The notes below the pieces were generated by a model, which saw only the letters and a program-made list of their open reading frames with translations, did not search any database and was not told the origin of the DNA. A program made the translations under genes and the position numbers. DNA of 64,000 nucleotides from Chrysopilus asiliformis. Taxonomy: Eukaryota > Arthropoda > Insecta > Diptera > Rhagionidae. The DNA lies in assembly GCA_964034945.1 (NCBI GenBank), contig OZ035962.1:26161530-26225529 (forward strand). Reading direction: 5' to 3'. Below, one piece after another: positions 1 to 44,370 of this stretch (within the stretch, counting starts at the first letter, position 1; each line of letters starts with the position of its first letter).

Positions 1-2951
1 AATATTTTTTGGCTAACAAAAATGATTTAAAATTAATTCGTACGAATTTTTTTGGCCAGCCAGATTCAAGTGTGCCATTTGGAAATACATCGGTTATACC
101 AAAAAGATATTTTCCCAGCTATGAAATCGAAACCAATTGTGATAATAAAATTCAAAGTGATGGTGCGACGATAGCAAAAAGTGATAACGAGAATCGACAA
201 AATAATCTTACAACAAATAAAGATTTCGCTGAATTTTCTAACAATAACAACGATTATGATAATAAACATAAGAAAAATTCCGAAAAGCCAGGTAGTCGGA
301 AAGATAATTACGTGAACAATTCTGGAAAATATCATGCAATTCCAAGTACGAGTACTCAGACTTTGAAACAAATTCCAGTACCAGAGTATTTTAATTCTAA
401 TGAAACAAAAGTAGAAAAATCTTTTTTGGAAATGGCAATAAATGATGAAAAAATTGTTCAAATATCTGCAAAGAGTCACCGAGAAATATCAAATGAAAAA
501 CCGGATTCAATTCATAAATCCGACATAGCTCTACCATCAGACGCAATCCAAAAAACCGACAATTTTGAAAAATCCGACTCAATGCAAAAAGGGCATTTGA
601 CCAAAAAAACAGAAAGCGATCCAGCTCCACTTTCCGGAAACACTTTCGAAGTTAGCTATGCCCGTCCCGGTACCAGTAAGGATTTTTCACCCGATTTTAA
701 CCAACAATCGACGCACTTCAATGTTGCAAATTATGAAGCTTTACATAAAAAGGATAATGAAAAAATATTTAAAAATAGTGGAAAACCATTAAGGATTAAT
801 TATGAATTAAGTGGAATTGGAGACTTTAAACGAACTAATGCGAATTCAACTGAATTTCTCCAATTCTCTGTAAAAGACGGCCTAACACTTGAAATTCAGT
901 GTTGCCGTTTTGAATTAAAATCAGGATTCTTAGACATTGACTTTAAAGAAGAAGAGTGTTTAGTGAAAAGTAAAAAATTTGAATTTATAGCGACATGTGA
1001 CTCCCAGAAATTGACAAATTTAAACTTTGAAAATGTGGATTTTACAAAATTGAAAGACACAGTTTTAAAATCATTACTCGTAACAAAAATTATTCGAGAT
1101 GGATTAGTGGAAGAACGAGATAAAGCGGTGGTTAAATTTGTAAACGAGTTTTATTCAATTGATACAACTGGAAATGTTGATGATTTTTATCAATTATATC
1201 GACTAATATCATCGCTAAATTGTTATACTGATGCCGCAACAGGATTAACTTTTAAGCAACTGTTATTTAATCAATATTTCAGTGAAAGTTTTCGTATTTC
1301 AATCAAACAAATCGAACGTTTAGAACATGTAATTTTTGAGCGTAGTTTACAATTACAATTCAATGAAGTCTACAAAGAGAAACAGTTTTTAAATTGCATA
1401 GATTTACTGAAAAAATTTGAACAAATTTATAAAAAAGAATTAGAACGACATCGCAGAGATTTACTTGAAGCGTGTGGATCGGATGCACATTTCAGTTTCA
1501 TCAAATTTGATATAACAGAATTAAATGACGTTCAGTTAATGTGTTTGACAATGAAGGCGATCACAAACCTATCGAAAATAATTGATATAATTAATCATCC
1601 GCAATATGAAGATCATAGGACAGCATTTAATACACTTTTACTGAACGCATGGAACGAAACTGTTAAAAAACTCAACGATCTTGATAAAAGTTTGGAATCA
1701 TTGACGGATGTTCAGTATAATACCGTTGGAATTTCAACATATCTGGTCACTAAATTTAAACACATCGCATTCAAAATTCATCCTCCATACCAGCCAAGTA
1801 ATATTTTTGTCCCAAAGCCTATTGTCCATAACGAATATTATATTTATGCCAGTGATAGACAACGCAAGTTTCTTAAGAATTTAATTTGTAAGGCTAACCA
1901 GACCACACATCAATTTCATTCGACATTCTTAAATGGTTATTGCAGTGCTCACACAAATATAAAAAAAAAAGAATTGATCGAATTTCATATCATCGATGAG
2001 GGAGTAAACGGCATTACTGAAAACTTACAGGGTGACATAACCCAAGATTTACAAAAGCGATTCAAGAATATTTCTGATATTGCTATCGCTGCATTTGTGG
2101 AAACAATTCGAAATTCATCGGAAGATGAAAACGCGAAACTGGAAGATTTTACTGACGATTTCACAAAATTTCTAGCTGTGATAACACCTTACGTTGTCAA
2201 AATACAGAAGAAATGCACTGCATTCGACTATGATGACTACATCCTTCTCAGTCAAATAAATCTAATTAAAGAATTTAGTACAAAATATGTTGAAGTTTCA
2301 CATTTAGTTGAGTTTCCGGTCTTTTTGGCAACCCTCGCCGTTTATTGGAATCACAGAGAAAATTTCCTGCAGTTTCTACATGACAAATTTGCAGTTACGC
2401 CACTAAATACACAAATAAACTCTTTTGAAAATGAAATTATGGCTATAATTTACAACATTCATTTGCATAGTTTAAATGCGAAGAATTTGAATGAGTTTTA
2501 TAGAGTCTTCAACAAATTCCTGCAACTTTTATCAAAAGAGTCCTTTGATTGGTTTATTAAGGACTCGGATATACCTGAGCATTATTGGAACACTGAAGCT
2601 ATCGAATTAATCGATGAAATGGCAAAAACATACAAAGTAATAGATTTTAACATATTTAAAAATATGGACAATACACCAGTTCACTATACAATGGATATAA
2701 TTACAGTCCTTGTGAAATTAGTGTTAAAAGTCTTAACTGAATTTAACTGGAATGCCGAAGAACGACTCAATGCTTCTCTTGAATTAATTTTTACATATAC
2801 TCGAATCATTTCAAAACTTAAGAACCAACCAAATCAAGCAGATTTCAGAGTTTTCCGAAGGAATATAATAGAACCAGTAGAAAGTGTTGTGGTGGGTTCA
2901 GAAACATTTAAAGATTTGTTTATTAATTTGGGGGAACTACAAAATAATTGA
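1..2951 (+). CDS. Helicase-less paralogue of the SecA-like protein family (5' partial)
   Basis: The reading frame is open from the window edge to a TAA at 2949-2951 (about 980 codons). Base 9 is TTG, not ATG, and the first in-frame ATG is at 432, so the gene probably begins upstream of the window. The first ~260 residues are polar, Asn/Lys/Ser-rich and probably disordered. The rest is helical and aligns block by block with the protein at 19686-25154: shared DDFYQLY, a VQLMCL/IQIMCL block, FYR-FN-FL-LL, DWFIK, TYKVID and ESVV. The match ends where the SecA-like motor of that protein begins; this protein stops with no Walker A, DEVD or other helicase motif. Two AATAAA signals follow. No function is known. 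It may be a truncated but expressed paralogue, perhaps an ATPase-lacking partner or competitor (inference). The paralogy is well supported; the role is not. Confidence 0.75.
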   Translation, partial: YFLANKNDLKLIRTNFFGQPDSSVPFGNTSVIPKRYFPSYEIETNCDNKIQSDGATIAKSDNENRQNNLTTNKDFAEFSNNNNDYDNKHKKNSEKPGSRKDNYVNNSGKYHAIPSTSTQTLKQIPVPEYFNSNETKVEKSFLEMAINDEKIVQISAKSHREISNEKPDSIHKSDIALPSDAIQKTDNFEKSDSMQKGHLTKKTESDPAPLSGNTFEVSYARPGTSKDFSPDFNQQSTHFNVANYEALHKKDNEKIFKNSGKPLRINYELSGIGDFKRTNANSTEFLQFSVKDGLTLEIQCCRFELKSGFLDIDFKEEECLVKSKKFEFIATCDSQKLTNLNFENVDFTKLKDTVLKSLLVTKIIRDGLVEERDKAVVKFVNEFYSIDTTGNVDDFYQLYRLISSLNCYTDAATGLTFKQLLFNQYFSESFRISIKQIERLEHVIFERSLQLQFNEVYKEKQFLNCIDLLKKFEQIYKKELERHRRDLLEACGSDAHFSFIKFDITELNDVQLMCLTMKAITNLSKIIDIINHPQYEDHRTAFNTLLLNAWNETVKKLNDLDKSLESLTDVQYNTVGISTYLVTKFKHIAFKIHPPYQPSNIFVPKPIVHNEYYIYASDRQRKFLKNLICKANQTTHQFHSTFLNGYCSAHTNIKKKELIEFHIIDEGVNGITENLQGDITQDLQKRFKNISDIAIAAFVETIRNSSEDENAKLEDFTDDFTKFLAVITPYVVKIQKKCTAFDYDDYILLSQINLIKEFSTKYVEVSHLVEFPVFLATLAVYWNHRENFLQFLHDKFAVTPLNTQINSFENEIMAIIYNIHLHSLNAKNLNEFYRVFNKFLQLLSKESFDWFIKDSDIPEHYWNTEAIELIDEMAKTYKVIDFNIFKNMDNTPVHYTMDIITVLVKLVLKVLTEFNWNAEERLNASLELIFTYTRIISKLKNQPNQADFRVFRRNIIEPVESVVVGSETFKDLFINLGELQNN

Positions 2952-3107
2952 CGAAAAACTTTTTTTTTTAACAAAATCCTTGCTACTTACAATTAGTTTT
3001 AATAATTCAATGGCTGTTTAATAATTAGTTTTAATAATTTTTATTGGAGAGCTTCCAGTTCGCTGTGATAAGTGAATGAAAACGTACGATTCGTGTGTTT
3101 GAATAAT

Positions 3108-16176: not shown

Positions 16177-16428
16177 TTAACACTGAAGTTTTTGATCATT
16201 TATTGTTTTTATTATTTCTTCAACATCAGCGATGATGTCGAATAGAGGAAACTCTTTGTTGTTTGGTGGTGGTGCAAATTTTGGTCCGAGAGCCAGCAGC
16301 CACATGATTGCCCTTGGGACATGGATATTTGTTAAATTAGTAAAACATTTATCGTCTATTGTTATATTTAACTCGTCAAGTAAATGGGTGTATAATTTGT
16401 CAAATTTTCTATCGTGAAGACCCCACAT
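16177..16428 (-). pseudogene. Inverted fragment of the Penelope ORF N-terminal region
   Basis: This 83-codon minus-strand frame contains LGPKFAPPP followed by a DVEEII helix. This resembles the conserved segment upstream of the reverse transcriptase in Penelope proteins. It lies head to head with the + strand reverse transcriptase, so the element begins with a partial inverted copy of itself, an arrangement known for Penelope elements. Confidence 0.6.
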
Positions 16429-16439
16429 CCAAACTTCAG

Positions 16440-19685: not shown

Positions 19686-22600
19686 ATGGAAACAGGTGAG
19701 GAAGCTAAAGTTGGTATTCCGGATACCCAACCCGATGTGAAAATTGGTATTTTAAACACCGAGTATGGGGCTGAGAGTTTCTTTCATTCGATTTTCGGTG
19801 CTGAGTTTGAAGGAGTTTTGGTCGAAAAAAATCCCAATTTCTATCGTGAAAAATGGTACAATTTCCTAAAGCAATTTAAATCCATCGATGATGAGGAACT
19901 GCCTTTAGTTTTAAGAGATCAACTCGAGCCGCTTTTTAATTCAATGCTCAAAAATGCCAGTAGTACTAGTGAAATGATTCAGGAACTTTTCCAAAAGACT
20001 AAAGATCGCAAATTTGTAATAAAACTAGAACGGGAAAAGCTAATAGATGATATTGTAAATAGATTTCATAAAGATCAAGAATTTTCCAATAAAATGTCAA
20101 TGATATTAAAGTTATGTGATGAAAATTTTGTAATATCCGAAAATAATTCAGATCAATTTAAAGATAAAATTAGAAGTAATATAAAATTGTGCGCATTTGC
20201 ATATGACACTTCATTAAATGATAAAAAATTCAACAAAAAATATTGCTCACATAATTTATTCACTAATTTAATTAGAAGTGAAGAATTTTACAAAACTTAT
20301 ATAGAATCAGTTAGAAGTTCAAATTATTTTGTACATTTGGAGGAAATCGGTTTACTCGTTTCATTGTTTAACATTGAAATCGGGGTCTACTATAATGAAG
20401 AAACATATTTAGTACGTAAATATTTTACACCAAATGAAGAATATTTTAACAATAAATTCAAAGTAAATTTAATTCCTACCGAAATAAAATGCGAGACCAT
20501 AGTTTTCTTTGATGGTTTAAATTTTTCACGGGCTCAACTTTACAATGAGGAAATTTTTGATAATAATCAATCTAAAAATCAGGACCCCGTAAGGGAAGCA
20601 TTCAATAAGTTTCAAAATTATATCGAAGCTAATCGAACAGAATACATATCTGATGAAGTAAATATTGATTTTGATGAAATTGATGATAATCAGAATTCCG
20701 ATGAAGCCCACATTGAAGATGATTTTTCTGACATTTCCGATTTTGAAACTGCAACTTTGCCGAATGACTTAAAACCTAAACGTTGGCAAAAATCACAAAT
20801 AAAAACCAGGAAAAGAAATACGCAGAAAAAATTTACCGGGTGTAAAAAAATTTTTAACGACACAGATCAGGAATTTATCGAATCTAATTTAAAAGATGAC
20901 ATTTTAGAGGAGATACTATCATGTAAATTTCTTTATTGTGGAGACAGGATTTGGAAATTGGAATCCGTCGGTGATGGTGTCTATTACATGCTTAGCAAGA
21001 ATTTTGTTTATCAGATATCGATATCTTCATTAAGAATTAATTTCAGTAAAAAATCGTTTTTTAAAATAAAAAAACAAATAATCAATAGTTTAACAATCGC
21101 AAAAATTCTTACCGATACTTTATTAGAGCGCAGAGATGATGCTTACACTTGTCTGGTATCAGCTTTCAAAACCAGCGATGAAATAGACGACTTTTACCAA
21201 CTGTACAAAGTCCTCATGTTAACATTGCTAAATTTAAGTAGCCAGGATTTTCTGTTGAAGCTATTACAAAATCCTGATATCAGTGAAAATATTCTGAACA
21301 GAATAAGAACCTTATGGGAATATGAAAATGACGTTGCTGAACGTAACAAGGATTTACCAAAATTCAACTCGGGTTTGGCTCCGCAACTATCAAGACTTGT
21401 GGATAAACTGCGTGAAATTTGTAAAGCTAAAATCGAAAATATTCGCCAAATTATGTTGGATATCTGCCCCCCACTAATATCTTTTCCCAAAATTTTTACG
21501 GATATTTCCCGGCTAACCGATATTCAAATTATGTGTCTTAAAACTGATGATGTTAAACTCTTTACGGAATTGGTGGACATCACAGATCAACAATGCTATC
21601 CTGCCGATCATGTTCAATTCGATTTTACAGAAAATTCTCATCGTTTCATAACGGATTCGTGGCAAAATTTACTGCAAAAAATCCGACCTGTCGACATTTC
21701 CATGCAAAGCGTAAAAGAAGTGGGGAAATTAACTAACGTATGGTATCCGTATTTATACAAAAGCTTTCTAGAATACATGGTGGAAATAAATAAACAGACG
21801 GGGTTAAAAGCAGCAGAATTATTCCACAATAGTAGCTCAAAGTGGAAAACCAATAAAACAATTTCTTGGCCAACACCGTCAATATACGTTTCGACCATCC
21901 AACGGCAGTACGTATTTTTGGGAAAATTATTGAATGAATATAAAATTGCGAGTGAGGTTACCTATGAGCATAAATATAATTTGAAGTTTTTAAAGAAATC
22001 CGTAAAGCCTGCACAGGATCAAATGGTGTGGGTTTATATATTGGACGATGCTATCCAAGGTATTATTGACTATCAGAAATCAAATGGCGGCCTCACAAGT
22101 GATAGTGAAGCTAAATTCAATTCTCTGTGTAAAACAATTGTGACTGCATTTTTGAAGTTTCTACAAGATTCACCACCAGACAATTACGAATCCTTTCGAT
22201 CTGGACTTCATGGATTAATAAAATTCATGGCAAAGATTACTCCATACATGGTGAAATTGAAAAAGAAACCAGTATCAGGTTTTAGGAAAATATTCAAATA
22301 CATGAAAGTATTTAGCGATAAAGATAACGATCAAAAGATATTAGAGGATCAAGTGACATTTATTAGTAAAATGTTAAATGCATCCACGACCAATTCATTT
22401 TCGATATATTTCTCAAGTTTAATTGACGTTTTCACGGATTACTGGGAATATCGTGATTTAATTATTGAAAAAATTTATCAAAAATTCGACGAAACTTGTT
22501 TGGACGGTGCCTTAGAAAATTTAAAAAATTCCATACTAAAAATTTTGATATCCGTTCATTCGATCGACGTTGATTTCGAAGACGTCATCCAGTTTTATCG

Positions 22601-25154
22601 TACATTTAACGAGTTTTTAAAACTTTTGGAGAATGTTCCCCTAGACTGGTTTATCAAGGAATTCGCATTGTGTGGTAATTTAAAAAATACTTCAGTGGTT
22701 GAATGTGTGAACAGTGAAAAACAAACATATAAAGTCATTGATCTTAATGAATTTGCAAAAACTTACACCGATGACGGATTAATGTTCCCCGACCATGATC
22801 AAATAGGGATTCTCCTCAAGCAAACTGAATTAGTTGAGAAGGTCATAAAAAGGACTATTTGGAGTCCCAAAGAGAGCATTAGTGCTGCTAGCGACTTGTT
22901 GTACACAATTAGCCAGACGCTTTTTTACTTTAAAGATCAACAAAATTACACAATTTTCACATCTTTCTATAACGAAAATACGAAACCGTATGAAAGTGTT
23001 GTGGAAAATTCAAAAACTTTTGCCGACTTCAAAACACGATTGGGAAATATTGAGAAAATGTTTGTTTTTTCAAAGAAAATCAATGAAATCGATATTGATA
23101 TGGCATTAGATATATTTGCAAATAACTCGCGTCAAATACCAGGAGAATTTAATTCCACTTACGATGAAGCGATTTTAAAATCTAGCTATAATGTATATGA
23201 GGCACAATTTAACGAATTCGTACAAATGTACGGCGTGAGACAAATTTTGGACATTATCAAGGATTTAGTACAACAAGATCGTGAAATCAGTACATGGGAA
23301 CAACAGTACAAACAGAAAATAGTTCCCAGGATTCTAGCAGGATTAGGAGCAATTTGGTCCATTCGAGAGTCTAAAGATTTGGCCTGTGTTAATCAATGCC
23401 TTAAGCCACACTGCATTCAAATCCTGTGCATTTTACGCTTGATTAGTGTTGATGAAAACTCGACTGGCATCAATCATCATTTAGCGCAGGTGTTAACCGG
23501 CCAAGGTAAATCAATTATCTTGGGTTTACTATCGGCACTTCTGGCTATTCATGGTCATAATGTTCGAATCGTGTGCTACAGTGGATATCTAGCTAAAAGA
23601 GATAGTGAAGATTTCTTCGATTATTTCGAGAGTTTAAAGGGTTTCAATGTTAATAGAAATGTAAGTTATGGTGTATTTGACGATATGTCAAATGAAACCA
23701 TCTGCGTGGAATTGAATGGTCAAAGTGAAAATTTACGATCCCTTCAAAGGAAACTTGTTTTGAATGAATTACCACGACAATCAGGCAATTTAGTAATTTC
23801 CAAAATTGATAAAACTATTCTTCTAATTGACGAAGTCGACGTCTTCTTTTCAGACAGTTTCTATGGTAGTACTTATGCAGCTTGTAGTACAATTGGTTTT
23901 AAACTTTTGGAAGAAATCCAAATTGAAATATGGAAGACCGTTTCAAGTGGTAATCACAATCCGGATAATATATGCAAAATTCTCGAAGAGTTTATCGTGA
24001 GCAAAGGTAACAAAAATTGTGATAAGGAATTCTTCAAATTTTATAATACCACAAAAACTATTTTTTATAAGCATCTTAACAAAATGATACTAAACGCAAT
24101 CGACGTGTTTAAGGGAGATGATTCAAATTGGTACATTAATAGATACAAAATAAATGAGGATGGTCGCATTTCGTACAGATGTACAGACGGATTGTATGTG
24201 TTACATGTGTTTCCCAGTTATTATAATGTATTTAACTACTTTCGTCTCAAGAAAAAGAATTTCGACTCAAAAAATTCCCAAAACTTTGGATATTTGAATA
24301 TATCAACCGGTCATGTTTCATATGCGAAATTACCAAATGAATATCCCTTGATTTTGGGCGTGAGTGGAACAATAACAACACTGAACAAGCCAGAAATGAA
24401 TGCCATACAATCGTACAATATTAGAAAAATTTCAAGTGTTCCGACATTTTTTGGTAGTCATAAATTAAAATTTTCACAAAACAACGATTTCGTAATACAA
24501 AACGAGGTAGATGATTGGTTAAGAAATATTTACAGTAGTGCAAATTCTAAGATCCAATCTGGCCGTTCAGTTCTAATATTTTTTGAAAGTGAGATAGAAT
24601 TGTACAAATTTCATAACGAATACCATACGAAAATCAATCGATTGCAAATATTAACCGGTAATGAAGATTTAAAAACTCTATCTTGGAATGTAAATGAATC
24701 GGGAGTGGCTAAAACCATAACCCTTGCGACACGTCTTATGGGCCGTGGCGTTGATTACAAATCGAATGATTCAGGAGTGGAGAAAAATGGCGGCGTTCAT
24801 GTAATTCAAACATTTTTCTCAATCGACATAAAGGAGGAGATCCAAATTAAGGGAAGAACAGCAAGAAAATATAATGAGGGTAGCTATGAATTGATTCTAC
24901 TGCGAAAGCAATTAGAAGATATCGATTGTTCAAAAGATAGCAGTGGAAGCGTATTAACTTCATATTCGCAGCTATGTACAAAGAGAGAAAAACTATGTGG
25001 GGAACAGGGTGAGAAAATGGCAAAGAAAATTGCAGAATCTGATAAAAAACATGCAGAAACTATGAAATTTTTAAAATCATTTTCGAATTATACACCAGAG
25101 AAACGCAGCCAATATTTTAATGAATATCCAATGAATGAAGAGGAATTAAAATAA
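19686..25154 (+). CDS. SecA-like DEAD motor protein with degenerate OTU-like N-terminus (1822 aa)
   Basis: The frame extends upstream to a TTG, but the ATG at 19686 has G at -3 and G at +4 and is chosen. Residues ~25-290 look like a decayed OTU peptidase fold: GAESFFHSIFG in place of the usual Asp-x-x-Cys box, a HLEEIGLLVSLFNIEIGVYY block, and FFDGLNFSRAQLY where OTU enzymes have a catalytic His. An acidic linker and a Lys/Arg stretch follow, then a ~800-residue helical region shared with the gene at 1-2951. The SecA-type motor has GQGKS (1272-1276), IDEVD (Walker B, 1382-1385), SGT (1560), ATRLMGRGVDY (1681-1691) and IKGRTAR (1721-1727, Arg finger present). A charged helix closes the protein. 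No SecA zinc motif, signal peptide or membrane segment is seen. ATPase activity is plausible; substrate unknown. Confidence 0.8.
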   Translation: METGEEAKVGIPDTQPDVKIGILNTEYGAESFFHSIFGAEFEGVLVEKNPNFYREKWYNFLKQFKSIDDEELPLVLRDQLEPLFNSMLKNASSTSEMIQELFQKTKDRKFVIKLEREKLIDDIVNRFHKDQEFSNKMSMILKLCDENFVISENNSDQFKDKIRSNIKLCAFAYDTSLNDKKFNKKYCSHNLFTNLIRSEEFYKTYIESVRSSNYFVHLEEIGLLVSLFNIEIGVYYNEETYLVRKYFTPNEEYFNNKFKVNLIPTEIKCETIVFFDGLNFSRAQLYNEEIFDNNQSKNQDPVREAFNKFQNYIEANRTEYISDEVNIDFDEIDDNQNSDEAHIEDDFSDISDFETATLPNDLKPKRWQKSQIKTRKRNTQKKFTGCKKIFNDTDQEFIESNLKDDILEEILSCKFLYCGDRIWKLESVGDGVYYMLSKNFVYQISISSLRINFSKKSFFKIKKQIINSLTIAKILTDTLLERRDDAYTCLVSAFKTSDEIDDFYQLYKVLMLTLLNLSSQDFLLKLLQNPDISENILNRIRTLWEYENDVAERNKDLPKFNSGLAPQLSRLVDKLREICKAKIENIRQIMLDICPPLISFPKIFTDISRLTDIQIMCLKTDDVKLFTELVDITDQQCYPADHVQFDFTENSHRFITDSWQNLLQKIRPVDISMQSVKEVGKLTNVWYPYLYKSFLEYMVEINKQTGLKAAELFHNSSSKWKTNKTISWPTPSIYVSTIQRQYVFLGKLLNEYKIASEVTYEHKYNLKFLKKSVKPAQDQMVWVYILDDAIQGIIDYQKSNGGLTSDSEAKFNSLCKTIVTAFLKFLQDSPPDNYESFRSGLHGLIKFMAKITPYMVKLKKKPVSGFRKIFKYMKVFSDKDNDQKILEDQVTFISKMLNASTTNSFSIYFSSLIDVFTDYWEYRDLIIEKIYQKFDETCLDGALENLKNSILKILISVHSIDVDFEDVIQFYRTFNEFLKLLENVPLDWFIKEFALCGNLKNTSVVECVNSEKQTYKVIDLNEFAKTYTDDGLMFPDHDQIGILLKQTELVEKVIKRTIWSPKESISAASDLLYTISQTLFYFKDQQNYTIFTSFYNENTKPYESVVENSKTFADFKTRLGNIEKMFVFSKKINEIDIDMALDIFANNSRQIPGEFNSTYDEAILKSSYNVYEAQFNEFVQMYGVRQILDIIKDLVQQDREISTWEQQYKQKIVPRILAGLGAIWSIRESKDLACVNQCLKPHCIQILCILRLISVDENSTGINHHLAQVLTGQGKSIILGLLSALLAIHGHNVRIVCYSGYLAKRDSEDFFDYFESLKGFNVNRNVSYGVFDDMSNETICVELNGQSENLRSLQRKLVLNELPRQSGNLVISKIDKTILLIDEVDVFFSDSFYGSTYAACSTIGFKLLEEIQIEIWKTVSSGNHNPDNICKILEEFIVSKGNKNCDKEFFKFYNTTKTIFYKHLNKMILNAIDVFKGDDSNWYINRYKINEDGRISYRCTDGLYVLHVFPSYYNVFNYFRLKKKNFDSKNSQNFGYLNISTGHVSYAKLPNEYPLILGVSGTITTLNKPEMNAIQSYNIRKISSVPTFFGSHKLKFSQNNDFVIQNEVDDWLRNIYSSANSKIQSGRSVLIFFESEIELYKFHNEYHTKINRLQILTGNEDLKTLSWNVNESGVAKTITLATRLMGRGVDYKSNDSGVEKNGGVHVIQTFFSIDIKEEIQIKGRTARKYNEGSYELILLRKQLEDIDCSKDSSGSVLTSYSQLCTKREKLCGEQGEKMAKKIAESDKKHAETMKFLKSFSNYTPEKRSQYFNEYPMNEEELK

Positions 25155-25925: not shown

Positions 25926-26202
25926 GCAACGACGGGTATGCAATATTTTAAGAAGAACACGCGCAGACAAGCCTAAATTTTATTTGACATTAATATAATT
26001 ACCAAGTATATATATATATACAGTGGTGGCTCGATAATTCGGACACTTGGTAATTCGGACACCTCAGTAATCCGGACAGAAAATTTTTAATATTGAAGAC
26101 TCTGTAATTCGGACATAAGACAAAAAGTCTGACTCAGTAATCCGGACACTAGATAAAAAATCGTATTTGAACCTGTCACTTATGTTACCGTAGCCGAAAC
26201 TC

Positions 26203-31009: not shown

Positions 31010-34000
31010 ATGGCCAAACAAAATTTAAGCACAATTGAGCAAAAGTTGTTGGAATTTAGAGGATCCCGAAAAGATGGTGAATGCGACGAATGGACTAAAA
31101 CGTTTCTAGTCGGACTAAATTCGGAATACAAAAAATTGAGAGAAAATATTCGTAATAATCGGGATTCCATAACGCTGCAAGAGTATTCTGAATGCCTCGC
31201 ATATCATTTTTACAATTTAACACTTCAATATCAGGAACTTTATGTAAATCACACGATCGACTTAAGAAGTGCAATTCGATGTGCGGAATACGCTTTAAAA
31301 TATTTCAAATCCATTCCAGATGAATTTTTATCTGACGAAGCAGAAGATCTGCACACACAATTATTAAATCTTCTTGATAAGTTGAATAAAATTTACAACA
31401 ACACGAAATGTAAAATTTTACAGTCTTCAGGCAGTGCTCGTAATTCACTATCATCAAATGTAAAATATCTGAAATATTGCATTGCATTGGGAGATATTGA
31501 TGATATTGACTATGAATTGAAGTATTTTATTAAGCGCTCCAATGGACAGCATCAACAAACGGTCAAATATCTTAAGAATCAGATATTTCATACTGAGCTA
31601 ATTCGAATTGCCCAAAATCTGGAAAATGAGCTAACAATTGATCAGGATAAAGAACAGTTCCTCCTATGGAAGCGGTCTCTATGCCTTGCATATTGTTATA
31701 AGTTGGCTGGCCAAGATGAGCACTATAAGAGATATTTACGAACGGCTAAATTATATTTGAAAAAGTTTGTGGATCTTGAAAATATCAGTGAGAAAAAAGA
31801 CGACAATGAATACCAAGTTGATGAACAGGACGAACTTGAGGAGTTCATCAGGAGTGCAATAGAAGAGAAACAAAGCAGTTTAATCGATGTTAAGAAGAAT
31901 ATTGAAGAAAACTTTGGCTGTTCAGCATTTAGCAATGTTGATGAGATTTTTATTGAGCAAAATTACATAAAAATATGTCTAGAGATGTGGTATTCAACAT
32001 GCATGGACCACATAAAAATAGCTATTGAGGATCGAAATGAAAATATGATCAAAGAAGTTCTAAATGCAGTCGATAATATTCAAAATTTAAATCAAATCCC
32101 TGAAAACCTCAAAAGATTAAAATATTTCCAAATGTTGTCAGAGAATTATCGATTAATAGCACGAAAAGCTGAATGTGACATTATTAGGAATTTTAAAAGT
32201 GAGTTTTTAGTCATGATTTGTGACTACAGTGAACTCCTTAAATACGAGTTTAAGTTCTTTGAAGCATTCTGTGACTTCCTCAATCACTTTAAAACATTTT
32301 CTGTGATCGTAGAAGAAATCGAATTGGAGCAATTCTGTTGCTTTGATATAACTTTCACGCAGTTGGCGGAAAACATATGTAAATTAAATGTTGATTCACG
32401 CTACATCGAATCGTTAGAATTAGTGAAGGAATCTTTGGATTGTCTCAAGAGTAAAGAACTTTTTATGTTAGAACAATTCCATAGACTCATCCTTCCTTAC
32501 ACCAAAAAACATACAATCGATACCAAATTGATAGAAAATCGATACGTTATCGAAGTTGTGGGAAAAAACATAATTTCCTGTGATTGTAAAGCAGAAATCG
32601 AGGAAAATTTTGTAAATAATTCGAAAATCGAAGAAATTCGATTTATTGCGACAAATTTGCTTTACGTGAATTGTGACTTTAAACAGGACCAATGGCATGG
32701 TAAAAACGTGGTGGTGTTTGCGAAAACGATCGAGATTGATGAAAAACCGGATGCGGAAGGATCAAAATATGTGTGGAATTTATCGGGGCTAAATGGGACG
32801 AACGTCGAGAGTAGTGCTGGCGTGGATGCAGAGGGAGATGGGAAAAATGGCCAAGACGGAAATGCAGGTGAAAGTGGCGGAAATGTTTTAATAATTGCAG
32901 ATCATATCATTAATGGAAAACAATTCGTTATCATATCGAATGGTGGTGACGGAGGCCGCGGTCAGAATGGTGGGGATGGCAAAACTGGATCCGATGGTAA
33001 AAGTCTATCCGTGTGGGACTTTAAGGACAAATTCCCACCGCCAGCTAAGTTTTTCACGCAGAAGCCCTTATTTAATAACATAAGAACTCTAGAGAGTATG
33101 GGAGTGAATGAGAAAAAATGGGACAATAAGAACTTCTTTATTGATGGTGGTACAGATGAATCCCGAATGAAAATACGTAACGTTTCCGTCTACATCGAAG
33201 GTACAACGCCTGAAAAGAATCACGTGAAGTTTTCATTCTACAGTCAAATACTGTTTCCCATGGACGCCGCATTTCTTCTATTCAAAGGATCACTGGGCCA
33301 GCCTGGTGGCAAGGGTGGTGAGAATGGTTTAGGTGGCCAGGGTGGTTTCGCTGGAGATATCAAAATATATGATCCGACGATTGAGGTGGAAACGTCGAAT
33401 GGCAAGCACGGTGAAAATGGACTTGGAGGTCAACATGGAAAGTACGGAAGTAACGGTTGGGATTTGGCGTATATGGATTACTCCGTAACAACCCCGTTGA
33501 ACGATTCCTGGCCAAAGTATCACGGCCTCGATGAAAATAGTACTTTGAAAGTGGTTAAGAGAAACTCAGATTCCTCGGATCGAGTTTATTGTGCATACCC
33601 GGAATACGAGTGCTACGTTGAAATCGAGCGCAATGAACGTGAGAAAAGCGACATGAAAAACTTTAATGAACGAAACACCCGCAAGGATAACAAAAGACAG
33701 CAACACGCGAATGCAATTAAAAAGAAATCCATATCGGAAAGTACAATTCAATCGGCGTATTCACAATATTTTAGTGCAATTGATCAGGAGATTCTGGATC
33801 GTGGGAATATGACCGAAACTCGGGAGCGAGCACTCGATTTGTTACGAGAGGAAAAGATTCAGGAAGATGAACAGACAATTAATTTACATGTAAGACAACA
33901 TCGATCGTCCGATTATATTCAAGAGACGCATGGTAGACAAATGCACCTCAATAAAATGTCGATGAGAGGACAGTTTAAAGTCAGGGAATTAGATGACCCT

Positions 34001-37000
34001 CTATTAGAATTGATTAAAAATGACAGTGTCGAGTTTGAAAAGTGGGTTTATGCTAGGACTCCGCACGTCAAGATCGCTGAGTTTGAGAAAGTCTTTGAAA
34101 TTTTCCAACATTTTGAAACCACATGCGAGGATCCCATTAAGAAACTTTATATAAAAAGTAATTTGATAAAGAAATATCGGTTTACAATTTTACAACAGAT
34201 TGAACATCAAATATATCCTGAAAGTCTAAATATGGATGTCGCTGAACAGAATCAAAAGAGTCGATGGTTCAAAAAGGCATCAGAGGATTTCAATAAAATC
34301 GGTCACATAAATTTGGGAGCGTTGTATCCATACATCTTTACCGATTCTGAGGAAAACAGAGACATAATTGTAAAACATTGTACCACCCATGAGGTGTCTC
34401 TTGATGGTCCACTGGAATTGTTTGTTAAAATTATTGGGGAGTTCACGGAGATGCGACAGCGCCTACTGGAAGAACTCAACGAGAATAAAAGCAATGATCA
34501 AAATGAATGGGGTGACGTCAATATACCCGATCTAAATCCAACTGTGAAGAAATTCTATAAGGAATTTAAGGATTTTTCACAATGGAAGTTCGATAGAACC
34601 AAAATACTGCTGGAGGAATTGAAATCAGAGATTAAAGTGTTGGGTGATGGGCTATACGATCTCTGGTTGAAAACTTTCAATTCACAGGCGACAAAGTCAG
34701 AATTCGAGACTAAAATCGGGAAACATCCTTTATTAAAGCAAACCTATGAGACATTTACGAACTCAATGAAGTCACAATTCGATTGGAGTGAATGTATTAG
34801 GAATGCGGAAATACGCGAAGAATTTGAACATCACATCCGAGAGAATGGTTTCAAATCACCAGCGTATCGAGAACTTTTAGCTGAAATTTTTGACGCTCAT
34901 ATCTGCGTTTTTAGTCAAAATGATTGCAAGCAGTTTCAACAATTGAGTGATCACAATCGAACCAGTAGACAAGAGACAAACATCCTAGCATGCGATACAG
35001 ACGACGGAGTAGAGCGATTTGTGCAGCTCCAAGAAGATGAAAATTGTATAAAATTATATGCTCAACGCGAGGTTCTAGACACGGCCTATAAAACCATCAT
35101 GACAAATGTTAACATGTTAGATAGTAGAGAAGAGGTCGAAAAATATTTTTATGAATTGAATATCACTCAATTAAGTAGAACGGATTCAATTTATCAACCC
35201 CAAACAGACAGTACTGGTTATATCGACAAGATTTTAAAGCATTTTTCATCATCTTCAGAAGAGGACACCATGAAAGACCGCCTTTTCAAAATATCCTCAA
35301 AATTCATCGAAGATCAACATATTTTACAAAATATTGCCTCTCGTTTTGATGTTGAAGGTCGATACATTACAGCGAATGAACTTTACAACGTCATTGACAT
35401 TGTTCTAAATTCTTATAACAACAAGAAAAATGACAAAAATCTGCTAAATTGGATAATAATGTCATATTCACAAGACCATTGGACCGATGAGCTGACACTA
35501 TACGAAATTGAAAACTACTGTCGGTATATTTTGCCAACCAAGACCAAATTGCGAAGATATTTGGAAAAAATTCCAAATAAAAACATTTTACTTGTATTCC
35601 AATCGAAATTGAAGCAGTTGAATGAGAAAAATCCCATTTCATTGGAGTTGATTGAAAATATATTTTATCTACTGAGCAATATTAAAGATGAGGTCAACAA
35701 TTTGCAAGATTTGGCGCTTGCCGAATGGCCTTCGGCAATCAAAGAGGATTTTTGGATGTCGAAGCTTATATCATTAACCGGAAATATAAATTCCAGCAGT
35801 ATGACGCTTTCCACTGCTTGCTACTATATTTTGCACATGGAAAATATTTACTTTTCAACTCCCGTTGAACAACTATTGGAGAATATCCAGAAGCAAAATC
35901 AATCTGTGTCAGCGGAAGAACTAGAAAAACTCCTGCTGCATTTTTACAACGAAGAATTCCATCTAAATGATGACGTATTGAAAGTTTTTTCGGAAAATAA
36001 AGTACTTGATGCAATGCAAGTTTTAAAACGGCAATATCCAATCACCAATGATGAACGTGATATCTCAAACTTATGTCAACTGATCAGACACAATAAGAAT
36101 TCATCAGAGAATTTAGTAAATATTTTGGAGACTATTGAAAATATGATTACAAACATCAAAGCATCAGATTATCCACAAAATGGATCAAAACTCAAAGATT
36201 TTCAGTATGAAGAGAATCATCTATTGGATCAATCGATTCAGGACTACAGTGAAGCGGATATCCGAAATTGGGTGATTATTTTCAAAACGGTGCTCGCAGA
36301 GAATCCCACTATAAAAGCAACTTTAGACTATAAAATTTTTGAAGAACTATTGGCAGTGATTAATCGTGGTATCGAATTGAAGCGTTCCTTCCGTCTTCGA
36401 GATACCCAAAATCTGGCAGTTCTTTGTCTCTTGTTGAACGTTCGCAATACATTGGCTCAGGTTTCCACGGGCGAAGGGAAATCTCTGATTGTGGTCGCGG
36501 CAACTCTGATAAAAGTTCTGTGTGGTGAAAAAGTCGACATCATAACGAGTTCATCAGTCCTCGCTAAACGTGATGCAGAATGTGAACCTCCAACAGGTAA
36601 CAGGGATATCTATGACTTGTTTGACATCAGTGTGTCGCATAATTGCAGCGACGATATGGAGACAAGGAAGATAGCATATTCCCAAAATCAAGTTGTCTAC
36701 GGTGATCTCTCTAGTTTCCAAAGAGATTTCCTGCTTGATCGCTTCTACCAGATGAATGTCCTGGGCGATCGAACATTCGAAAATGTTATTATTGATGAAG
36801 TTGACAGTATGCTCCTGGATAAGGGAAACAATATGCTGTATCTGTCACATGATCTTTGTGGTATGGATCAATTAGAATCCGTCTACTTGTTCATCTGGCA
36901 ATGGGTGAATCGGCCAGCCGGTGATTATCAGGATTTTGCCTACAATTTCGATGTTAATGCTATTAAAGCGGCCGTTCTTTATAACATGTATGGAACTATC

Positions 37001-39494
37001 ACGGGAGATGACGTTAAGCGAATTGATAGTGAGATTAAAATACAAGAGATCAATCGGATTATGTCAAGTTTGACAGACGCCAAGATCATCGACAAAGATG
37101 GGAAGTTGCTGGTGAAAAATTTGAATGATAACCTAAGAAAAAAATTGGACCTTGTTCTTACTGAACAGAGAGTCAACACGTATCGAACGAGAGTATTCTA
37201 TCTAATAAAGGAAACCATTGATCGCGATCAAATTATCTCGGTGCCAAATTATCTGCGATCATTTATTGAAGAACACGTCGAGTGTTGGATCAATAGTGCA
37301 ATAACAGCTCTGTCAATGAAAGAAGGATACAACTATGTGGTCGATATAAACCGAAGGGGACACAGCACTGATATTAATCCGAATATAATTATTATTGATA
37401 ATGACACTGGAACTGATCAAACCAATTCACAATGGGATAATGCCTTACATCAGTTTCTGCAACTCAAACATGGCTGTAAGATTTCTATGCAGAGCCTGAA
37501 AGCAGTCTTCGTATCGAATGTGTCCTACTTTAAGCTCTACACCAAATTATATGGATTGACGGGAACTTTGGGCTCCAAGCCAGAACGAGAACTTCTGCAG
37601 GTGATCCACAGTGTAGATTTTGTAACGATACCGACGGCAAAATCGAAAAAATTCCGTGAAATGGAACCGATTTTGTGTGGAAATGAGATGCTTTGGTTGG
37701 ATTCAATTGTGGCCAATGCGAATAAAATGACGATCGAAAATGATCGATCTGTACTGATCATTTGTGAAACTGTCGATACTGTGAAGAAAATTTACAAAGC
37801 ATTCGGTGGAAAATCGGCCCGCGATGTTTACACATACACTCGAGACTATGAAGAATTTGTTATGGGGCAGGGAAATCAGCGACTTGAACCAGGTAAAATT
37901 ATAATTGCGACAAATTTGGCTGGTCGAGGCACAGATATTAAAATCTCTGAAACCCTTCGACAAGCGGGTGGTCTTCACATTTGTCTTACTTATCTGCCCA
38001 ATAATAGTCGCATCGAACAGCAGGCCTTGGGAAGGGCAGCCCGTTGTGGGGATAGTGGATCTGGTCAGCTGATAATCATGAATAAGACGGGCTACATGTA
38101 CGGATGTTCGATGGTGGTGAATTTGAAACACTCTCGAAACCAAGATGAGCTGCAAAGGATTTCGAAAATCAAGGAGTACTACGAGAGTCAAATTATGGTT
38201 GAGGAAGAATGTTTTAATAAATTCAAAACGAAATTCCTTGAAATTTACGGGAAACTGAGTGAAAAGAGAGTCAATGAAAATACTCTGTTATTACTTATCC
38301 AATCAATCTTGGATCGTTGGGCCTTTTGGCTAGATAAATACGGAAATCTCATCCCGAAATTTTCTGAGGCAACAAACAAGAGAGATTTTTATGCAGCTCT
38401 AAAAACATTCTTACAAGACTTGGCCGCCTTAAAATACGACAGTCCATATCACTTATCCCTTTGGGTAAAGGGTAATCCGGTTCAGTCAGTAAAATTGGCA
38501 ACTTATTTTGTGAGCGATGGACACCGGGCCGATGCAATTGGAATTTTAAACGACATCATCGACAGTGAAGAGAAATTTTCCCATGCTGCACATTACTTTA
38601 AAGCTTACGCGTTTGCTAAAGATGGAAGATCCTTAGATTTAGTGAAACGAGAACTCGAAATCGCGAAAAGCCTTTTTGAATACCATAGCGAGAACACAAT
38701 AAATATGGGAGCTATTATTGATAAAATCCGTCAAAGTAACACAAATAACTTAATTCAGATCAACGCATATGTAAATCAAAAGAAGAGCCTCAGTAATTTG
38801 TTTTACACTTACATCAATTCAATTAATGAAATTTTGGGGCGTTCAGTGGAGCCCGAGACATTGTGCTATGGCGGGATATCTGATGAGTATATTGAACTCT
38901 TATTTAGTGATCTTCTGGAAAATGGCATATTACTTAAGCCGAAAGTCACATGGAATCGTGATATAACGGATGACATTAAAAACACCTGTTCTGGATATGG
39001 TATATCCTCTGAGATTCTGACACAATTCTTGAATAGATACAAAAACCAAGAAATCGACATGGAAGCATTTCTGAAAGATTTGGAAAAATCGGTACGCTTG
39101 GCGAGCAGAGAAAGATTTTGGAATATTCTCGTGGAAAAGGACATTCTTCGTCAAGAGCACCAATACATTATAGTTGATACCACCAAGTTGAATTTAATTG
39201 ATCAACAACTATTCAATCAATTGAATGCGAATATGAATAGAAGCCAAACATTTTCAAATAACGATAATTGTGAAATTTTCTTGTATGGAGAACAAATTGA
39301 AAACCTAAAAGAACACTCGAAAATATTTCTTAAAAGTGACATTGAATACTTATTTGATCCTGACACAATCAATATCCTTTCGAAATTGGGCGTGTTTTTT
39401 ACCAATAAAAGGGCGCGGATCTGTGCGGAGAAGGTGGATGTTCCAGATTTTACTATCTACGATGCAGTCTCGATTAGTGACTTCTTAAATGAAG
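31010..39494 (+). CDS. Giant SecA-like multidomain protein, exon 1 (residues 1-2838)
   Basis: The frame extends to a TTG at 30980, but the ATG at 31010 has the strong context. Residues 1-~580 are helical and TPR-like. Residues ~610-820 hold collagen-like Gly tracts (GGDGGRGQNGGDG, GGKGGENGLGGQGG) around a region with beta character. A long helical part follows. The SecA-type motor has TGEGKS (Walker A, 1821-1825), IDEVDSMLLD (Walker B, 1929-1932), LTGT (2184), ATNLAGRGTDI (2300-2310) and LGRAARCGD (2341-2345, Arg finger kept), closer to bacterial SecA than the gene at 19686 is. Two small helical modules follow, one starting GISDEYIELLF. No SecA C-terminal zinc motif is seen. The donor GAAG|GTATGT at 39495 interrupts a Gly codon; without splicing, a 45-residue tail would precede a stop at 39631. 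Motor and order are clear; cellular role unknown. Confidence 0.85.
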
Positions 39495-39692
39495 GTATGT
39501 TTGAATTATATGTTTTTACTTACATTTTTTATGAAGTGTACAATGGGCCCAACTTGAGGCCTACGTGCGTGGGGTTCACTTTTGAGCCCCCTTCCTATCA
39601 AACCAACCAACCAACCAACATTTTTTATTGAAATGAGTGGTTATAGGGTAGTCCTTACACTAATACATACTCAAGTGGGAAACCAAACCAGG

Positions 39693-39861
39693 AGTGGTAT
39701 TCCGTAACTTGTTTCAAGCGTTTGTTTCGAGTTAGAAGAAAAAGTAGTATTCGCGATCTCTGTTTCGCCCTGTCATTTATCTTGATCGGAACAAAGACAG
39801 CGAATATTACTTTTTCTTCTAACTCGAAGCAAACGCTTGAAACAAGTTACGAAATACCACT
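39693..39861. repeat. Hairpin element with about 62-bp arms
   Basis: AGTGGTATTCCGTAACTTGT... and its near-perfect inverse ...ACAAGTTACGAAATACCACT are separated by a ~47-base loop. It is a fold-back MITE of unknown class. Confidence 0.75.
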
Positions 39862-40737
39862 ACAGCTGTTAAGCATTTCTCCATAAAAATTGTATCTTTA
39901 ATGCTAGTATTAGACTTTCACTACTCATCATGAAGAAAAATTGTGCGGCATGACGAAAAGTCTGCAATGTCTGAAGCCCTCTGCATCTGCAACCCAAAAC
40001 ACTGTACAGCTTTTGAAACAGCCGCAGTTTTTTCAAATGCTGCGCAACCTAAAAGCAAAAAAAGTTCCATCTGCTTGCATCTTTTGCGGCACTACTTTGG
40101 TAGAACCAGTTACCAGCAGAAATTGACACTTTCATCCGGTTTTTTTTCTGAACCTTTTTCAATTGAAAGCAAATGCAATAAAAGGGTGAAAATGTGTATT
40201 TGGTTTAGTTTCCAGGATTTTATCCAACAACTTTGTTTCGTCAGGCGATGACGGCGTTTTCTTCTCGCCATCAATGTAAAAGGCAAACAATCTGCTACTA
40301 TCACTGAATTATTGATAAATTCGAAATAAATAACAATTAAATTATGCTAAAGAGTCAATTGGGGGCTTAAAATTCGGATAGCCACAAAAAATTTTGCGGG
40401 AAAAAATTTCGAGTCCATAGAATTTATATGACCAAATTTTTGATAACTGCTTTGTTTTCCCACTCAAGATACATACATACACCTACGCGCAGTCAAATAA
40501 ATGCACGTAAATAGTGACGTGTTCTGTTTAAGTTCTCGGTTTTTGTGAAAATTATTTTGTTTCTGTTATTTTATTTAAAAACATATTCTTCACAAAACTT
40601 TCATCCGGAATAAGAATTTTTTACGATCATTTAATTAAAAATTTACAGATCTTCTAACATCTGTTATCCAGAAAATTTTCTTGTATGCGTTTGAAAATCA
40701 ATTTAAATTAATGTTATTTCTAACCGGGCTTATACAC

Positions 40738-41343
40738 GTCTATTTCATACGCAGGCCAAGTTTTGCCATGCTGCTTGCAGGTCAATCAAAAACAGTGGGT
40801 TTTGATGAGAAAATAAGAAACTCGTTGCCCTGCTGTTTTTAAAATTAACCCTAGTCCTACGTTGGTGTAGAAAACTACATTTTTGGTTTTTCATTTTTTA
40901 ATATATTTGGAACTGTAAAATAAAATTTTGGGAGCCGATTCTCCGTGACTTTATTTGTTCCATGGAAATCTACCACAACCAAATAATTTTAATATCTCCA
41001 TAGTAGTAGAAGCCAACATTTTTTTAAATTTAAAAAAAAAAAAATTAAATGAATTTTTTCTCAACGTAGGACTACGGTTAATAGTTTTTGAAATATCGTA
41101 AAATTGATTTTATTTATTTGCCCTGCATTTCATATGTTGCTAGTTATTTTTTAAATGAGATTTTCCTTTTAAATATTGAGGATCGTCATAGTAAGTAAGC
41201 TTTAGACTTTTTTTTTTTAATTTTTCAGTGATTGGTATAACAGGAGCCTGATAATAGTTATATTGGGCTGTTAATTCAAATTATTCTGTGCCATGCTGGA
41301 ATATGAAATGCCCGGCAATTTGCCCTGCGTATGAAATAGACGC
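40738..41343. mobile_element. Inverted-repeat element (606 bp) flanked by an 11-bp direct repeat
   Basis: The ends are GTCTATTTCATACGCAGG and CCTGCGTATGAAATAGAC(GC). GGCTTATACAC is directly repeated at both borders (40727-40737 and 41344-41354), consistent with a duplicated target. Inner arm similarity extends to a CATGC motif. It sits 58 bases before the splice acceptor. Confidence 0.7.
40849..41077. mobile_element. piggyBac-like MITE (229 bp) nested in the 606-bp element
   Basis: Ends CCCTAGTCCTACGTTG and CAACGTAGGACTACGG, flanked by TTAA on both sides (40845-40848 and 41078-41081). Confidence 0.7.
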
Positions 41344-41401
41344 GGCTTATACACCATAAAAATATTGAAGAAAAATGTGATTGCTTTTATTTTTTTCGCA
41401 G

Positions 41402-44370
41402 GTATAACGAAAGAAGATGCGACGGTCATTTTGACGGATCTTCTCGAGCAAGGAATTTTGAAAAAGGATGAACACGAAACTTATCGACTGACAAAAAAAT
41501 ACGATCCTTCAGTAGGCCCACGACTGAAGAGATTTACAATATATGAAAATTCAGTCAAGTCAATTTTTGCTCTACGTTTTATCTACAGGATCGCATGGGA
41601 AAAAATTCTTTTGCAATTGGAAGACAAAGCACCGATTCGCCTTCCACTAGTTTCCAGTCCTCACAACCAACTGATGGTGGATCTAATCAAGCTAAATATT
41701 GTGTCTCCGGTGCGTGTGAACTCGAAAATCGACGATTTTAAGACAAAATTAAATGATTTATTTAATGATCAGAACCAGGGAAAGTATCGACACCGTTTCC
41801 AAGACGAACAGGTTTTGAATAGTGTTCAGAGGTCCCTGGAGAAATCCCAAAGTCTGTTTGAAACTCTTGAAAATCCAAGTTTTAAAACAAAACCTTTAGA
41901 TGAATGCTTTGAGCAAAATCAATTTGGTAACTATGAGGAAATCCATCAGTTCGATTTGAATGGACTGGAATATGTTCTCCAGGTCGAAGAGCAAAAATGG
42001 ACCCTAAAGATGTGGTTATACTCGGGTGTGGTTATACTGATGGGCATTGGCCAAATTGTGATTGGAGCTTTGATCGAAATGTACACGGTTGGTGCTATGA
42101 CCCATGTTGGTTCAGGATTCATTAGTGAAGGCATCAATGATATATTTTTTGCTATAGGCGCAATAAAGTCGGGCTACTTCAGTTGGAAGGATTATGGCCG
42201 GGCAAAAATAGAGAGTATTCTTTTGACTATTGTGAGTGTGGGTGTGGGTGCGTATCTTTCGAGAGGAGTAAAATTGAACCGATACGGATATAAAATCGCT
42301 GGATCCACGGCAGAATTCTCCGGAAAGAAAGTATCTGAAACGACTGGAAAGAGTTTATTTAAAGCGGTCTCAAGTGCAACATTCAGCGAAACCAAGAGAA
42401 GCGTTTGGAAGGAGTTTGGAAAACGAGTTGGCCTAAAGACACTCCAAGGAATCACATATGGTTGTGCGCATGCTGCAGTTGACTCAATCGCCGAGAATTA
42501 CCTGCAACAAATGATTGCAAATATTACTTCAACGATTTTGGCGACTGTTCGGGCCAGAGTGAATGATCACGTATTGTCAAATACATTGGAGCTATTGGTA
42601 AGGACAATGGGTGTAGATAGGGCGAATCAGTTCATTGATAACGTTACGAGAGATTACTTCGGAATGGCAACAACTTTGGATGCGTTCTTGCCATTTGCCA
42701 TCAAACTTGCGGGAAGCATAACATCCGGCATTATCGAAGCATCAAAGAAAATGTCCAGATCAGGTGCAGAACTCGCTCTCCCCATAAAAGTCATAAGTGA
42801 AACGGTTAAATGGTCTGGCAAAACAGGAGATATTCAGAAAGTCATAGAAATCATAGGAAACATCCTCGATAATGTAAACAATCAGTTGATCCTGGCACTA
42901 GGAGCCCTACAAGCACTTGGCATTAACAACGCAACGGAAGAGGAAGTTCAGGATTTCAGGCGGTCAACTTTGGAACGATGGAATGTGTTTTTGAATGAAA
43001 AAGTCGGTCAAATTATTTCAACGAAAATCGTTGTTCCGATATTAAAGCAGAGCGCTGAGAATCTCGTCCGTTCGGTAGGTAAATCCATTGAAAACTCCTA
43101 TAGACAGGGAAAGGAAAATAAATACTTTAAAACATTTGAAAAACTCAAGGACGAGTACAAGGAACAATGCGATGCACTCGCGGCGAAATCTATTAATGAA
43201 TCCGACCCGACTGCAAAGGACCTGGTAACAAAACAGTACCACAAAGAGTTGCTCATACTGATGTCGAAAACGCGAGATTCCAAGCTATTTGCGTCCATTA
43301 TTCGTGAAGACATTCCGATGGACTTCACTTGCGTAAATGCCTGCACATTGGCGATTCCCCGTATAATGCAGGCCCAAGGAATACCCATGACCGGCCTGAC
43401 GATTGTCGTAGAAAATGAAAATGGCTTAACGGAGAAATTCTCTAGCGGAAATGGTGGACCGGTTGTGAAATTGAAATTGGGCAATCAGCATTATGAGAAC
43501 GAAAATCAAAAGACGGATCAACAGTCCGATTCGGGATCTTATAATTGCTTATTCCAAGCGGTCTCCGATTCTATGAAATTAAATATGAACGCAAAGACAT
43601 TTAGGACCCACATTGCAAACTGCATTGAGCACGATCCGAAAATGGTGAACGTAATCCACAAAGGATACCATCAGTTTGCTATATCCCATGAAGGATTCGG
43701 TGGTGCTAAAAAAGTTGTCCGGGAGCATAATTTCAACGTGGAAGCGGAGAAGTTCATGAAGCACGAGCATCGAACATGGAAGTTCAATAAAGAAAAAGAC
43801 GTGGACTTGCGCGATTTGAAGATCAAAAGCCGTGCCGAATTGAATGATCAACTGAAGAGAGCTTTTGAGTCCGGCCTCAACGAGATCCACAGTCGTTTCG
43901 AAGAGGTAGAGGCCCGTGGACATAACAGTAAAATGTCATTCGATAATTTCAAGGAAACGAAATGGGATGTTGTAATGATGGATGATAAGAATGGTAATCC
44001 AACTCCGGTTCTATTTCCCGTTGAATTTGTTGGACAGTGTAACGTTAAAGTTCAAAATACTAATGGATATAAGACATTTGATCTAAAATTGGACCTTGAC
44101 AATCCAAACGTATTTAGTGGACCGGAAGGGCCACATGGGCCGCATGTAGGATACGAAGTAAGATGTAACAATCCTGGATCGGACTTTAAATATCAGAAGA
44201 TCGTTGGCCACGTTCTGCTCAATAAAAATGGTAATGAACGCTTGCCGGGGAGAGAAGGGCATCACGACTACTATGACGATGTGAAGGACATACCGAAGGT
44301 TCGCTTAAGCCATATTGTAACTGGGAAATTAAAGGACAGGCCTTTAGAGCGCCATTCGGATTTTTCATAA
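41402..44370 (+). CDS. Giant SecA-like multidomain protein, exon 2 (residues 2839-3827)
   Basis: The exon opens inside a helical module. Residues ~3043-3100 contain strongly hydrophobic Gly-rich segments (VVILMGIGQIVIGALIEM, then a HVGSGFISEGINDIFFAIGA stretch), and a long amphipathic region follows. This resembles the hydrophobic C-terminal region shared by latrotoxin-like and bacterial insect-associated toxins (family knowledge, weak match by eye). After ~3540 comes SGSYNCLFQAVSDSM, like an OTU or toxin-associated Cys peptidase box with Cys3554. A candidate His pair lies at GHHDYY (3792-3793). Unlike the N-terminal OTU-like region at 19686, the Cys is kept. Stop TAA at 44368-44370. No secretion signal is seen on the assembled protein. 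The splice assignment is firm; the pore and peptidase calls are tentative. Confidence 0.75.

Follow-up and report, generated by a model that had tools for sequence, protein, structure and literature searches.

The stretch of DNA analysed here, 64,000 nucleotides of the fly Chrysopilus asiliformis (contig OZ035962.1, positions 26,161,530 to 26,225,529 of the forward strand; hereafter the window), contains a very large gene, gene 1, that is in our view probably a long-resident animal copy of the giant, effector-like wBol1_1092 type of protein shared with symbionts, accompanied by a partner of the wBol1_1091 type (gene 2) and built as a body ending in Gly-Gly to which an exchangeable tail is attached. 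The body joins a helical N-terminus, a Gly-rich region, a SecA-type core, hydrophobic helices and a Cys/His domain in one chain, and it ends mostly at Gly-Gly, after which the exchangeable tail follows. A preliminary description of this DNA had reported such parts joined in one host polypeptide; they are so joined here, but the join is not peculiar to this animal, as Wolbachia and many arthropods, nematodes and rotifers share it. Comparison of relatives suggests that the body stays fixed in this family while the final 200-odd residues are swapped like a cartridge.

Structure and chromosomal setting of gene 1

Gene 1 lies on the forward strand in two exons, the first (31010..39494, ATG at 31010) an open frame encoding residues 1-2828 plus the first base of codon 2829, and the second (41402..44370, stop at 44368-44370) an open frame of 988 residues after the split codon. 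The coding length of 8,485 + 2,966 = 11,451 nucleotides corresponds to 3,817 residues, which replaces the 3827 residues given earlier. Between the exons is a phase 1 GT...AG intron (39495..41401, forward strand) with the donor tgaag/gtatg after 39494 and the acceptor cgcag/gtata before 41402 (slashes mark the splice points). Exon 1 was found to be collinear over 99% with both an Osmia protein (P0001) and a Wolbachia protein (P0004); the P0004 alignment stops at its residue 2826 in exon 1 and resumes at 2831 in exon 2, and the corresponding P0001 positions are 2820 and 2825. Because the intronless Wolbachia protein and the Osmia protein both continue across with four residues between the local alignments, the 39494/41402 junction is supported by homology, the best check on it, in agreement with the canonical splice sites and with the preliminary description.

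The window occupies 26.16-26.23 Mb of a 114.8-Mb contig, in a genome of 429 Mb and 42 contigs. Downstream of gene 1 are an enoyl-CoA hydratase (ECH)-type gene (at 46106) and a UCH-type gene (at 59489; Pfam UCH at its cut-off, USP10-like by eye). With a canonical intron, a position 26 Mb inside the contig and these downstream genes, gene 1 is a host-encoded spliced gene, as first described, and its region is a host locus. The motor shares its highest identity (61-63%) with proteins of the Wolbachia type and of Osmia, as might be seen if the sequence were a Wolbachia contaminant or a recent functionless nuclear insertion of phage WO DNA; we regard this explanation as largely refuted and very improbable, given not only the intron and the chromosomal setting but also gene 1's own long branch in the motor tree (0.43, placement unresolved), the absence of any stop across 3,817 codons, and the presence of a further copy, divergent but open-framed, on a different contig. 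For exon 1, ~89 stops would be expected under neutrality (from 0.43 changes per column on its own branch, for the motor only, and an exon-1 ratio of stop to missense changes of 0.073), and none is observed.

The second copy lies on a 117 Mb contig of the same genome (C1:23.78 Mb), with open parts of 1,898 and 1,910 residues (L024 2799-8492 and L025 1006-6735), and is 30% identical to gene 1 over residues 40-1939, 44% over residues 1939-2828, and 36% over exon 2. It has its own GT...AG break inside motif II (DEVDSMLLDKG/NN), with a long CAGA-type microsatellite inside the break, and reads SGTLG at the TGTLG motif. The 39495-41401 intron is absent at the homologous site in this paralogue, and both introns are missing from the Wolbachia proteins. 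The simplest reading is that introns were gained after acquisition, which would fit an intronless, ultimately bacterial source.

Homologues in Wolbachia and other genomes

Among 7,968 scored candidates, 1,147 were homologues of gene 1 at E ≤ 1e-3, and the best 120 of these include sequences named as Wolbachia groups A and B, bees, ants, flies, mosquitoes, bugs, a moth, a butterfly, brine shrimp, a spider, nematodes and rotifers. Alignment with the Wolbachia protein P0004 takes in 99% of exon 1 (39% identity) and 97% of exon 2 (35-38% identity), so that gene 1 is collinear over its full length with the wBol1_1092 type; we assign P0004 to that type from its length (3,942 residues, or 11,829 nucleotides with the stop) and its host group. 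In our trees the Wolbachia rows were nested among arthropods on short branches, in agreement with passages of Duplouy 2013 (PMC3639933), and the deep tree was star-like and did not follow the hosts. As to the direction of transfer, the nested Wolbachia rows have to be weighed against the star-like deep tree and other bacterial proteins that have part of the architecture. SecA-motor frames of 1,242 to 4,195 residues, in which the motor is followed by all or part of the hydrophobic region, were found in the genomes of one Rickettsia, one member of the Cytophagales, one of the Legionellales and one gammaproteobacterium (L001, L002, L004, L006). In the phages collection, the gene 1 motor matched 20 records (27-50% identity), of which none bears the name Wolbachia, whereas gene 2 had no match; in IMG/VR, three loci were matched by our alignment A1 (28-33%) and no locus by the Wolbachia proteins P0004 and P0123; and 12 loci on GTDB contigs were matched at 23-41%, none titled Wolbachia.

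Exchangeable tails behind a Gly-Gly junction

The body of gene 1 ends at a Gly-Gly (exon-2 residues 766-767; 43699..43704, forward strand) that is GG in 41 of 51 aligned rows, and the remainder of the protein is the tail (exon-2 residues 768-988; 43705..44367, forward strand), which we call type A. Pfam gave nothing convincing for this tail, the best match being DUF2141 at E 0.12, under its cut-off. For tail sorting, each of the best 120 of the 1,147 homologues was cut after the conserved stretch and the remainder grouped; 80 of the 120 reach this stretch, six whose tails fell short of 60 residues were set aside, and the other 74 fell into class A (30, plus gene 1; four of these rows are uncertain, as their tails include body sequence), class B (26), class C (6), class D (2) and 10 singletons. 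When five Wolbachia or Wolbachia-like pairs were compared, all fell to 0-32% identity beyond the junction, although P0005 and P0006 are identical until that point and the other four pairs are 40-100% identical per 25-column block before it. Identity ends directly after LGAFGG in four of the five pairs and two residues later in P0013/P0014. Profile comparison of tail classes A, B and C aligned only 39-51 columns, which lie around and before the junction.

Some of the tails have recognizable enzymatic domains: an OTT_1508-type deaminase forms the end of all three class C rows that were scanned, and P0085 ends in a GIY-YIG domain (6e-5), with a weak GIY-YIG match in P0084 (0.024). By eye only, class D resembles an LHH/HNH nuclease and the P0014 tail a ParB-type toxin domain; Pfam matched neither. 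Some singleton tails are probably annotation artefacts, such as that of P0061 (a nuclear-receptor domain) and that of P0028 (retroelement-like by eye). Mapped on the motor tree, from which the labelled row P0105 is absent, the tail classes of the 64 labelled rows require 12 changes or more, as against a mean of 26 and a minimum of 21 in 200 sets of shuffled labels; the tails have therefore been partly inherited and repeatedly exchanged. In the C1 paralogue the putative His and Cys of the body and the FGG are kept, but the tail residues H914 and H936 are absent, although of 24 aligned rows 20 have the former and 23 the latter, and its tail is perhaps disarmed.

Like polymorphic toxins, the gene 1 family has a shared body with an exchangeable C-terminal domain. 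As described in parts of Zhang 2012 (PMC3482391), those toxins likewise have a shared body, a sharp junction, a C-terminus that is exchanged (enzymatic in some of our rows) and a preceding peptidase-like domain; the gene 1 family differs in having a SecA-motor body and in occurring in animal chromosomes too. PADLOC gave no match for gene 1 or gene 2 themselves, no immunity-gene search being made. In the portions of the open-licence PubMed Central literature searched, we found no report of tail exchange in the wBol1_1092-type family, and the SecA pair is treated there as a case of horizontal transfer to which a role in secretion is ascribed by supposition. Its Gly-Gly junction and swapped tails recast it as a polymorphic-toxin-like protein common to symbionts and animal genomes.

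A putative OTU-like domain ahead of the junction

Immediately before the Gly-Gly, exon-2 residues 622-760 (43267..43683, forward strand) are predicted, with moderate confidence, to have an OTU-like peptidase fold, with a putative His (43489-43491) followed by a putative Cys (43546-43548), the reverse of the usual order. H696, F/Y697 and C715 of exon 2 are conserved in 42, 45 and 43 of 51 rows, giving a reversed His-aromatic...Cys order in which C715 belongs to the Cys box NCL, and H696 and C715 are putatively catalytic. The preliminary description had placed a peptidase-like part with a Cys box at the C-terminus; such a region exists, but it precedes the Gly-Gly, and the true C-terminus is the exchangeable tail. 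A canonical OTU triad formed by C715 with H914 of the tail was also considered and dropped, as the tail, including H914, is exchanged whereas C715 stays. No OTU profile was listed for the gene 1 exons or for P0001 and P0004, nor was there one among the 25 families shown, out of 28, for the 11 members of alignment A1. The best fold match was to EschOTU, a permuted OTU deubiquitinase with the same reversed order, which according to portions of a 2020 structural paper (PMC7396840) had by then been seen only in that protein; unlike EschOTU as described there, the gene 1 domain has no OTU profile match, its third triad residue is ambiguous, and it is fused to an exchangeable tail.

This fold match is one reason to consider that the domain might be a deubiquitinase acting on host ubiquitin and not a self-processing peptidase, another being that OTU-like peptidases of intracellular bacteria have been proposed to target host ubiquitin. 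We hold this alternative to be less likely than not: a domain lying right in front of the Gly-Gly where one tail gives way to another fits processing, and processing peptidases of polymorphic toxins sit mostly N-terminal or ahead of the toxin domain. It is conceivable, if doubtful, that animals and Wolbachia share a self-processing SecA giant in which a permuted OTU-like peptidase makes a ubiquitin-like Gly-Gly cut and an enzymatic tail is released, with animals keeping the pair as an intracellular weapon. In the reading of gene 1 that we favour, the OTU-like domain would cut after the Gly-Gly, freeing the tail, and the ATPase core might power movement of its own chain or of the partner, both steps being proposed with low confidence; the freed tail would then act upon a target within a cell. 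In the animal the gene has probably been domesticated, and we suggest, with little confidence, that it is kept to fend off or control microbes or competing genetic elements. If C715 does self-cut after the Gly-Gly, it would represent another case of the reversed OTU order and raise the question of what use animals make of it. At about residues 1290-1420 of gene 1 (34880-35270), another stretch that is conserved across the family (YRELLAEIF...HN) looks OTU-like by eye but had no profile match.

The SecA-type motor and the rest of the body

The preliminary description's SecA-type ATPase with intact core motifs was borne out. The core spans residues 1736-2357 (36215..38080, forward strand) and has all five motifs in place (TGEGK 1820, DEVDS 1929, TGTLG 2184, AGRGTD 2304 and QQALGRAAR 2337), most of whose columns are invariant across 11 aligned rows. 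It matches Pfam SecA_DEAD (PF07517; E 5e-32) and P-loop_SecA (PF21090; E 3e-8), NCBIfam SecA models with E-values to 8.8e-48, though far below those models' cut-offs, and solved SecA chains with E-values to 1.8e-33; the family profile scored to 1.6e-44 against SecA. These motor motifs and the P-loop domain, together with a weak match to the preprotein cross-linking (preprotein-binding) domain (12-16 bits in gene 1 against a cut-off of 23.5; 10 of 11 family members at E ≤ 0.5, the best 3e-5), would suit a working translocase whose motor exports host proteins in the manner of SecA. We consider this quite improbable, as the alignments to SecA end past the motor core at ~residue 540 of SecA, with the helical scaffold, wing and C-terminal domains unmatched in the alignments shown, and as tail exchange is unexpected for a housekeeping translocase. 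Compared with the bacterial SecA translocase, then, gene 1 is alike in the ATPase core and its motifs but has the motor embedded in a 3,817-residue protein with unrecognized scaffold and C-terminal parts and exchanged tails.

Upstream of the motor, the Gly-rich tracts noted earlier are present as Gly-x-x tracts (residues 555-830; 32672..33499, forward strand). They keep a conserved register: across 32 rows 28 columns are invariant, and 20 of these are Gly. Behind the motor, exon-2 residues 178-292 (41935..42279, forward strand) form a hydrophobic helical region with one strongly hydrophobic stretch at its peak (residues 203-229). The latrotoxin-like pore proposed for this part was not supported: searches of a library taken to include the latrotoxin model listed no such family, either for exon 2 (E ≤ 1) or for P0001 and P0004, which are full-length homologues (E ≤ 0.5), and the exon-2 model had no match in the PDB at E ≤ 0.001.

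Gene 2 and the pair

Gene 2 (19686..25154, forward strand) encodes a SecA-like protein of 1,822 residues (SecA_DEAD 7.6e-8) that is homologous to wBol1_1091, with 38.5% identity to the Wolbachia protein P0122 over residues 351-1799. It groups with spider proteins, with a Shimodaira-Hasegawa-like approximate likelihood ratio test value of 81 only. Passages of Duplouy 2013 (PMC3639933) describe wBol1_1091 (4,488 nucleotides) and wBol1_1092 (11,829 nucleotides) as eukaryote-like secA genes with consecutive numbers, the latter under purifying selection; parts of other papers give pair homologues in wAlbB-Uju (PMC9680635) and in wHa (wHa_3920/wHa_3930; PMC5062602), and two different SecA homologues in phage WO of wHa. 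As far as those sources go, the pair in the window resembles that of Wolbachia in consisting of two neighbouring giant SecA-domain genes of the same size classes, with gene 1 collinear over its full length. It differs in lying in an animal chromosome, in the intron and divergence of gene 1 (39% identity over exon 1), in the spacing of its genes, which are on the same strand and separated by 5.9 kb that include a reverse-transcriptase fragment, and in the ~330 extra N-terminal residues of gene 2, which are without counterpart in the 14 best rows. Trichonephila also has the pair, where a single gene model (P0121) joins gene 2 to an N-terminal portion of gene 1; the order there is gene 2 then gene 1, as here, and the Wolbachia locus numbers in the passages cited suggest 1091 then 1092. 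A 19,191-base contig, the longest of both P0090 and P0142, probably also carries the pair.

Occurrence of the pair together in Wolbachia, in a spider and here, the patchy host spread, a star-like tree at odds with the hosts, and reverse-transcriptase fragments on either side of gene 2 (Pfam RVT_1; 16344-18087 and 26194-27458, forward strand; by eye Penelope-like (GIY-YIG) and long interspersed nuclear element) could all be explained by a selfish or mobile two-gene unit, either a toxin with its partner or mobile-element cargo, that passes between symbionts and animals, residing in them only transiently. This is unlikely, in our judgement, as the divergent open-framed paralogue of gene 1 and a partial, worn gene-2-like copy (792..2975, forward strand; 29% identical to gene 2, one in-frame TGA) argue for long residence. 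An extra N-terminal part was also seen in a gene 2 homologue from the Wolbachia of Chorthippus parallelus (P0130), named in its source as an OTU domain-containing protein.

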